From assembly GCA_017551425.1 (NCBI GenBank), contig JAFZLQ010000033.1, positions 1-39,398 of the forward strand: 39,398 nt of DNA. Direction: 5' to 3'. Below the pieces are notes generated by a model. It saw only the letters and a list, made by a program, of their open reading frames with translations. It had not been told where the DNA came from and did no database searches. The stretch comes from Bacteroidales bacterium. GTDB taxonomy: Bacteria > Bacteroidota > Bacteroidia > Bacteroidales > UBA932. This document shows positions 22,043-23,447 of the stretch, in pieces (within the stretch, counting starts at the first letter, position 1; every line of letters begins with the position of its first letter). The position numbers and the translations under genes are program-made.

Positions 22043-22219
22043 ATGATCGGAACAATCGTTTACATCCTGGGTATCATCGCAGCCGTCTGGTGCGTGCTCG
22101 ACATTTTCAAGAAACCCAAACTCGACCTCATCATGAAGATCTTGCTTGCAATCGCAGTGCTCGCCTTCAGCTGGGTCGGCTTCCTGGTATATTACTTCCT
22201 TATCCGCCAGAGGATCTAA
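22043..22219 (+). CDS. Small membrane protein, PLDc_N-like, 58 residues
   Basis: A short frame missed by length cut-offs. It encodes 58 residues with two hydrophobic spans (about 2-20, IGTIVYILGIIAAVWCVLD, and about 31-53, MKILLAIAVLAFSWVGFLVYY) joined by a basic loop FKKPKLDLI. The layout resembles the small PLDc_N (phospholipase D nuclease N-terminal) membrane proteins. It starts seven bases after the parC stop in coding style like its neighbours, and a strong hairpin with a T-tract follows 16 bases after its stop, which fits the end of an operon. The function is unknown. Confidence 0.75.
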   Translation: MIGTIVYILGIIAAVWCVLDIFKKPKLDLIMKILLAIAVLAFSWVGFLVYYFLIRQRI

Positions 22220-22235
22220 GTATCCCAGCCCCGGC

Positions 22236-22282
22236 AAAAACGTCGCCGGTGGTCCTGTTGCTGGACCGCCGGCGACGTTTTT
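22236..22282. terminator. Hairpin 1: long palindrome, likely bidirectional terminator
   Basis: Arms of 20 bases (22236-22255 and 22263-22282) pair with a single G-T wobble around the loop TGTTGCT. The core is GGTGGTCC/GGACCGCC. The outer ends are A5 on the left and T5 on the right, so an RNA from either strand would form a GC-rich stem followed by U residues. It is also the first of five related hairpins around the transposase gene. Confidence 0.7.
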
Positions 22283-22328
22283 ACACTTTTTCCGTGTCTG
22301 GTGGTCCAGCCGATGGACCACCGGGAGC
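22271..22328 (+). repeat. Left copy of 58-base direct repeat
   Basis: Matches 23331-23388 at 55 of 58 positions; the three differences lie in the short spacer between hairpins. It contains the right outer arm of hairpin 1, a TTTCCGTGT spacer and all of hairpin 2. Confidence 0.85.
22298..22324. repeat. REP-like hairpin 2
   Basis: CTGGTGGTCC and GGACCACCGG (10-base arms including one G-T wobble) flank the 7-base loop AGCCGAT. It is identical to hairpin 5 downstream of the transposase gene. Confidence 0.8.
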
Positions 22329-22352
22329 ATTATTGTAGGTTTTTCGTTACTG

Positions 22353-22374
22353 GAGGTCCAACAGCTGGACCACC
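22353..22374. repeat. REP-like hairpin 3, degenerate, next to the transposase promoter
   Basis: GAGGTCC and GGACCACC with the 7-base loop AACAGCT; one A-A mismatch breaks the 8-base arms. It ends five bases before the -33 element of the transposase promoter. Confidence 0.65.
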
Positions 22375-22378
22375 TGTG

Positions 22379-22408
22379 TTGTTCTTTATGAGAAAACCTC
22401 TATATTTG
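22379..22408 (+). promoter_or_regulatory. Putative promoter of the transposase gene
   Basis: TTG at 22379-22381, a 19-base spacer, and TATATTTG at 22401-22408 match the Bacteroidota promoter consensus well. It lies 15 bases before the ATG at 22424, which supports that start over the upstream in-frame codons. Confidence 0.6.
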
Positions 22409-22423
22409 CTGAAAACTAATACT

Positions 22424-23284
22424 ATGAATTTCTTCTTTATCACCACAGATCATTTTGATGACCGAATCTGGTTCATCGATGACGACGATTTCAAAGTCGC
22501 TATGAATTATGTCCCCATTGCATCTGTAGTAGCAGATGTCACTATTCTTGCATTCATCTTGATGTCAAATCACATTCATTTCCTTGTGGAAGGCACAAGA
22601 GAGGGCGCTGATCATTTTATCAATCACTTCAAAAAAATCTATGGAATGCATTACGAAAGAAAGTATTCCGTAAGAGAATTCCTAAGGCGCAATACAGTGG
22701 ATACTCAGGAATTGTATACAGCGAATGAAGCCCTTGAAAAATGCATTGCGTATATTATAATGAATCCGGTAGCGGCGAATATCTGTGCTTTCCCATCAGA
22801 TTATCTCTGGGGCTCCGGCAATGCCTTCTTCAACCCTTCACCAATGAGGGGAACCAGGGTATCAAGCCTTTCGGGAAGAAAAAGGCGCAGTTTGCTCCAC
22901 AGCAAAACGAAAGTAAGTTATGGTATGCTAATAGGAGAAGGGTATATTCATCCTCGTTCATATGTGGCTGTGAAGTTTGTTGAATCATTGTTTCGCACGC
23001 CTTCGCGTATGCACTTCTTTCTCAAGAATTCCTCAAAAGCGAAAAAGCGACTGGATAAAGATGCCTCTCCGTCTTTTAGGGATCAGAGTATTATTGCATC
23101 ATCTCAAGACCTTTGCCGGAGCCTGTTTCGCAAGTCTTCACAGGATGAACTCACGCCGGAGGAACTTGTTGAATTCTTAAAGCAATTAAAACGCCGGTTC
23201 AGTGCAGATGTAAATCAGTTGGCCCGGGTAACCGGTATCTCAAGAGTGGAGATTTCCCGGAAGCTTGAAGGCCTTCAGTTGTAG
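22424..23284 (+). CDS. REP-associated tyrosine (Y1/HUH) transposase
   Basis: A 286-residue Y1_Tnp (IS200-like) protein. The metal-binding HUH motif is His50-Ile-His52 in LMSNHIHFLVEG, and the likely nucleophile is Tyr110 in CIAYIIMNPVAAN, followed by the SDYLWGS segment usual for RAYT proteins. The C-terminal 60 residues (SQDELTPEELVEFLKQL ... VNQLARVTGISRVEISRKLEG) look like an added helix-turn-helix. The frame is open upstream through the hairpins, but the promoter and conserved start favour the ATG at 22424. RAYTs cut single-stranded DNA at hairpin repeats and are usually single-copy, domesticated genes. Codon use is AT-rich compared with neighbours. All key residues are present, so it may be active. 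Confidence 0.88.
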   Translation: MNFFFITTDHFDDRIWFIDDDDFKVAMNYVPIASVVADVTILAFILMSNHIHFLVEGTREGADHFINHFKKIYGMHYERKYSVREFLRRNTVDTQELYTANEALEKCIAYIIMNPVAANICAFPSDYLWGSGNAFFNPSPMRGTRVSSLSGRKRRSLLHSKTKVSYGMLIGEGYIHPRSYVAVKFVESLFRTPSRMHFFLKNSSKAKKRLDKDASPSFRDQSIIASSQDLCRSLFRKSSQDELTPEELVEFLKQLKRRFSADVNQLARVTGISRVEISRKLEGLQL

Positions 23285-23304
23285 ATTATAGATGAAAACC
23301 CTAG

Positions 23305-23333
23305 GCCGGTGGTCCAGCAACAGGACCACCGGC
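23305..23333. repeat. REP-like hairpin 4, followed by a T-tract
   Basis: GCCGGTGGTCC and GGACCACCGGC (11-base perfect arms) flank the 7-base loop AGCAACA, which is the exact reverse complement of the hairpin 1 loop. CGACGTTTTT continues to the right as in hairpin 1, but the matching left outer arm is replaced by unrelated sequence. It could also terminate the transposase transcript, 21 bases after the stop codon. Confidence 0.8.
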
Positions 23334-23388
23334 GACGTTTTTGCCCTCTTTCCGTGTCTGGTGGTCCAGCCGATGGACCACCGGGAGC
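23331..23388 (+). repeat. Right copy of 58-base direct repeat
   Basis: The partner of 22271-22328, with the copies starting exactly 1060 bases apart. After the repeat a short perfect hairpin AGCGGC-GAG-GCCGCT spans 23386-23400. Confidence 0.85.
23358..23384. repeat. REP-like hairpin 5
   Basis: Identical in arms and loop (AGCCGAT) to hairpin 2 at 22298-22324. Confidence 0.8.
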
Positions 23389-23447
23389 GGCGAGGCCGCT
23401 AACGAAAGGATGCGAAAACAAAATCAATAAAAAATATCTACCTTGTA

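Follow-up and report, generated by a model that had tools for sequence, protein, structure and literature searches.

What is the relation between a transposase gene and the five small hairpins that surround it in a Bacteroidales contig? The locus occupies positions 22,236 to 23,388 of JAFZLQ010000033.1 (assembly GCA_017551425.1), whose 39,398 nucleotides are called the window hereafter. An earlier note, made from the sequence alone, had suggested a repetitive extragenic palindromic (REP)-associated tyrosine transposase (RAYT) with its own family of hairpins, and as a whole this interpretation was partly supported. We put a probability of roughly 0.8 on a RAYT-REPIN-like system, in which an HUH/Tyr gene resides amid hairpin pairs and serves non-autonomous copies of the pairs elsewhere in the genome. 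This reading stands on the fold, the hairpin pairs with their fixed spacing, remote copies in relatives and the match between remote stems and transposase flanks within a genome, all of which emerged from sequence and models.

The transposase gene and its flanking hairpins

All five hairpins that the earlier note had placed around the gene, three before and two after, were located (Table 1) by a pattern search allowing up to 3 mismatches, hairpins 1 and 3 carrying one stem mismatch each. Shuffled windows contained 0.16 matches on average, and five were never reached in 100 shuffles. Neighbouring hairpins are spaced by 52 bp within both groups. Folded as single-stranded DNA, the two flanks gave z values of -9.75 and -4.94. 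The loop had been described as always exactly 7 bases; an A-T pair closes these 7 bases in hairpins 2 and 5, leaving an open loop of 5. Eight of the ten feet fit the dinucleotide tags YG (5') and CR (3'), the misfits being the right foot of hairpin 3 and the left foot of hairpin 4. The 5' feet read CGTCGCC, CGTGTCT and CGTTACT. The canonical GT[AG]G was not found at the 5' hairpin foot, where YG alone is conserved, confirming that these hairpins are unlike the GTAG-type REPs.

The HUH part of the protein comprises residues ~1-120, and the predicted structure contains the HUH motif and a single catalytic Tyr in a Y1 fold. The HIH motif (His50 and His52) and Tyr110, recorded earlier as intact, are invariant across 27 aligned sequences. 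Residues 216-285 at the C-terminus resemble the ParB/Spo0J DNA-binding domain with a low Z; two viral contigs (L001 and L002) matched the protein at 31% over residues 209-264 only. An alternative in-frame start lies at 22388. In the stretch that separates hairpin 3 from the start of the gene, TATATTTG (22401-22408) resembles the Bacteroidetes -7 promoter motif, and hairpin 3 could influence transcription of the transposase gene.

Table 1. Coordinates of the gene, hairpins and inverted repeat in the window.
Feature	Position	Strand	Remarks
Hairpin 1	core 22248-22270; tag to tag 22241..22277, CG...CG	.	one stem mismatch
Hairpin 2	core 22300-22322; tag to tag 22293..22329, CG...CA	.	52 bp from hairpin 1
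Hairpin 3	core 22352-22374; span 22345..22381	.	5' tag CG, no 3' tag; 52 bp from hairpin 2
Hairpin 4	core 23308-23330; span 23301..23337	.	5' tag absent, 3' tag CG
Hairpin 5	core 23360-23382; tag to tag 23353..23389, CG...CG	.	52 bp from hairpin 4
41-nt inverted repeat	left arm 22233..22273, right arm 23305..23345	+	98% complementary; joins hairpin 1 with hairpin 4
RAYT-like HUH/Tyr transposase, 286 aa	22424..23284	+	between hairpins 3 and 4

Hairpins beside related transposases

A protein search detected 1611 relatives at E <=0.001 among 2169 candidates, one of the best 120 listed being 99% identical. From a scan of GTDB contigs, we used the best 80 of at least 503 relatives (L003-L082), titled Bacteroidales or Bacteroidia. 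Many relatives also bear hairpins at the gene, with different stems; transposase lineages have stems of their own, and loops vary (7, 9 or even-numbered). From tag to tag, most of these hairpins measure 37 or 38 nt. The earlier suggestion of GGTGGTCC with a 7-base loop as a phylum-wide signature was not supported: the exact pattern appeared in 4 of 37 relative genomes (1, 10, 8 and 8 hairpins) and was absent from the other 33.

In odd-centred hairpins (n = 92), YG was found at the 5' side in 84% and CR at the 3' side in 83%, both 17 nt from the centre. The corresponding values for even-centred hairpins (n = 51) were 55% and 57%, at 18 nt. Tags 1-2 nt off the main distance were seen in 0-6%, except two nt inward, in the stem (21-25% and 14-22%). 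These counts are limited in that YG/CR dinucleotides are not confined to 17 nt: inside the stem, at 11, 14 and 15 nt, they also occurred in 21-35% of the odd hairpins. Of the 80 loci, 51 have one or more hairpins bearing both tags within 500 nt of the gene. A single transposase in L064 (and in L103) has hairpins of the GGTCC type on its upstream side and of the nGTCC type on its downstream side. For distant paralogues in the same genomes (L184-L195), the scan found a hairpin at 3 of 12 and none at 9 of 12.

Hairpin pairs away from the gene

GGTCC-N7-GGACC hairpins occurred as pairs in 21 of the 47 genomes holding relatives of the gene, and the reversed pattern in none of the 47. Start-to-start distances of the 74 distinct pairs in the fetched DNA were either 52 bp (48 pairs) or 51 bp (26 pairs). 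Among 65 distinct pairs of L083-L143, 51 were scored as lying >400 nt from any transposase, a number that wrongly includes L113 1982, next to which lies a transposase split by the scan. The nGTCC-N9 type was found in 21 of 30 genomes (e.g., 11 pairs in G023; control, 1 in two genomes), in counts that partly contain the flanking pairs themselves.

 The outer 5-bp stem of 42 remote pairs from nine genomes matched the own-genome transposase flanks at 4.57 of 5 positions, as opposed to 1.92 in ten other genomes, and the own genome was strictly the best match for 30 of the 42; this comparison includes L113 1982, and genomes richer in flank stems match more easily. The earlier idea that a RAYT-like enzyme has a hairpin family to itself is supported, together with remote copies in relatives and the association of copies with the gene. 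Gene and pairs tend to occur together: with the gene called at E 1e-60 in 61 genomes (G002 and relatives), GGTCC pairs were found in 7 of the 19 gene-bearing genomes vs 1 of the 42 others (Fisher p = 7e-4; 0.002 leaving out G002).

The gene adjoining the locus is, by our reading of it alone, presumably topoisomerase IV subunit A-like. By this gene, the closest genomes in a set of 120 centred on G058 were G058 itself (92%) and G012 (89%). G058 contains 44 window-like hairpins at <=2 mismatches (control 3), largely in ~52-bp arrays, one of which lies beside a transposase (L231). The arrays seen in L235, L237 and L238 of this genome comprise up to 14 hairpins at a ~52 bp period. At the same threshold, no window-like hairpin was found in G012, G020 or G070, and neither the three in G074 (two of them forming one pair; control 4) nor the two in G117 (control 7) exceeded the control.

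We regard as unlikely the alternative of a domesticated protein that binds hairpins for regulation or chromosome organisation, without moving them. The HUH and Tyr residues are invariant, several distinct hairpin families coexist within one genome, and a G058 pair checked at its G012 site was absent there as a GGTCC hairpin while both sides are conserved, though this is a single site, compatible with gain or loss alike.

Clearly less probable is a complete IS200/IS605-type insertion sequence, with the hairpins as its ends and the remote pairs as decayed or internally deleted copies. The HUH/Tyr enzyme with hairpins on both sides suits such an element, as does the gene neighbourhood: conservation in G058, G012 and G070 runs through the topoisomerase gene and the small gene after it up to window position 22218-22224, and none of the eight fetched regions of relatives gave a match to the window transposase. 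The ABC transporter gene farther on is kept in G070, where a few copies of a ~60 bp repeat (L226 3900-4120) lie between the topoisomerase and ABC transporter genes, at the place of the window transposase. Nevertheless, gene copies in the 21 genomes with two or more were never >65% identical within a genome (fetched copies scoring >=350, relatives only) while the pairs are multi-copy, and several loci have a complete hairpin pair on each side of the transposase.

Thirteen of the 51 pairs scored as remote overlap an open frame of >=120 codons, and 38 are intergenic (<=60 nt overlap with a chosen open frame of that size), 16 of them between convergent genes and 8 between divergent ones. These 16 pairs, together with hairpin 1, whose 20-nt arms (22236-22282; 95% complementary, ending A5/T5) follow shortly after the upstream small gene, could suggest ordinary intrinsic terminators among which the transposase landed, but we consider this the least probable of the explanations, as T5 directly at the stem occurs in hairpin 1 alone of the five, pairing at 51/52 bp, a fixed-distance tag and genome-wide shared stems are not terminator traits, and G058 has an array of 14 hairpins.

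Several observations weigh against the RAYT-REPIN-like system. Twelve of the 19 gene-bearing genomes lack a GGTCC pair, and G061 has such pairs but no gene at E 1e-60. The twelve would be expected if their enzymes used other stems, and the transposase gene may be lost or unassembled in G061. The G058 arrays have no YG/CR feet, with AG on one side and a mixture on the other. No hairpin with either tag lies within 500 nt of the gene in 25 of the 80 relatives, and both tags are missing from 33 of the 143 well-paired hairpins in its vicinity. The window protein scored 44.7 bits (E 1.2e-11) against NCBIfam NF047646 (REP_Tyr_transpos), below its curated cut-off of 80, and 20.1 bits against Pfam Y1_Tnp (PF01797), under the gathering score of 23. 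Finally, a profile comparison with E. coli RayT was not significant.

Stem pairing and a candidate recognition residue

Outside the GGTCC core, whose conservation arises by construction as it served as the search word, pairing at positions 1-5 reaches 82-86% (30-42% expected) and at positions 6-8 60-65% (32-37% expected), as counted over 142 hairpin halves. Position 9 is a nearly invariant G-C, so its pairing is uninformative, and pairing stops at position 10. The hairpin type tracks the protein tree, with 9 changes against shuffled means of 20.7 and 20.8 (0 of 200 as low). Types were labelled by hand for 46 of 83 proteins (92 hits minus short and identical ones), the remaining 37 having no tagged hairpin, another or unclear word, or a mixture (L064).

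The residue best associated with the type is Arg89, which is present in 15 of 15 GGTCC-type proteins vs 4 of 21 nGTCC-type proteins. Over six independent pairs, ~5.75 agree and none disagree (next-best residue, 3.72), with a sign-test p of 0.03 that is uncorrected and belongs to the best of 349 residue-column tests, chosen post hoc. In a small hold-out all seven agreed (Arg in L152, L203, L204 and L216; non-Arg in L176, L205 and L213), although the hairpin words of L152 and L216 had entered the analysis before (as L039 and L140). If admitted, L214 (Arg, word CGTCC, even-centred) would be contrary to the rule; L202 (Leu89) has GGTCC on one arm with imperfect pairing, and at many of the new Arg89 loci no hairpin could be recognised. 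In the predicted structure, Arg89 sits between helix 59-81, after the HUH strands, and strand 92-97, before the Tyr helix. According to PMC6006769, insertions between helix C and strand 4 adjoin the hairpin-recognition region, and we infer that the region of Arg89 corresponds to this site.

The architecture, the remote copies in relatives and the co-variation can be read from sequence; the action of the enzyme would be as follows. It would bind the folded single strand and measure 17-18 nt from the hairpin centre to the YG/CR foot, as a putative ruler. Cleavage near the foot through Tyr110 would then move or copy the pairs, a process that probably uses the single-stranded DNA of replication forks. 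Recognition may combine a shared part (the foot and G-T-N-C near the apex) with a lineage-specific part (~5 bp of the outer stem), and in the GGTCC type the uppermost G-C pair may be read by Arg89. We propose tentatively, at somewhat less than even odds, that the system constitutes a separate Bacteroidales RAYT-REPIN branch with a two-part code, i.e., a shared ruler to the YG/CR foot and a lineage-specific stem partly read by Arg89, in which each enzyme diverges together with its hairpin and more than one independent duo exists per genome.

An open question in the field is how a RAYT selects its hairpins and whether it spreads them. The relatives provide dozens of enzyme-hairpin duos that differ in stem and loop while the geometry is largely kept, and one residue is predicted to accompany one base pair. 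Recognition and mobility are therefore directly testable by swaps. The duos form a natural set for learning hairpin recognition and a candidate set of separable single-strand DNA enzymes.

Comparison with known systems

The enzyme shares the HUH/Tyr fold and the presence of hairpins with IS200/IS605 elements, from which it differs in the lack of near-identical gene copies among those fetched and in having pairs on each side. The CGTC-tagged REPs reported from Bacteroidetes among other phyla, with no transposase alongside (PMC3733652), are alike in their dimers and in the CGTC or TGTC foot of some copies; they differ in loops of mostly 4-5, stems of 8-9 bp and a CCA tail, and the present hairpins did not fall into that class. 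No publication was recognised by its title or the start of its abstract as describing this protein family, most subscription journals lying outside the coverage.

A closer counterpart is TnpAY1 subclass 2.6 (RAYT group 5), mostly from Bacteroidetes, for which PMC6006769 describes secondary structures of an atypical form beside the gene, with further copies elsewhere. Phylum, structures at the gene and dispersed copies are alike, while the subclass has a median of 179 amino acids with YIH[QN]NP and WQ, and the window protein has 286 with YIIMNP; the two are set apart by this description, not by a tree. As REP-like systems in Bacteroidetes are already reported there, the kind of system is not new.

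Three enzyme-hairpin duos with GTAG feet were tested in PMC8266576. Compared with the E. coli rayT system (PDB 4er8), the window system is without the GTAG foot, its protein is longer, with a C-terminal part, and its hairpins mostly measure 37-38 nt from foot to foot, in pairs at 51/52 bp. With TnpAREP/RAYT and REP/REPIN it shares the HUH/Tyr fold, a single gene per hairpin family, paired flanking hairpins and further copies elsewhere. By the broad definition of RAYT/TnpAREP it would belong among them, as REP-like hairpins flank the gene and, in relatives, one gene copy per hairpin family and dispersed inverted pairs were found. The system behaves like RAYT-REPIN, in a form that is not canonical by its foot.
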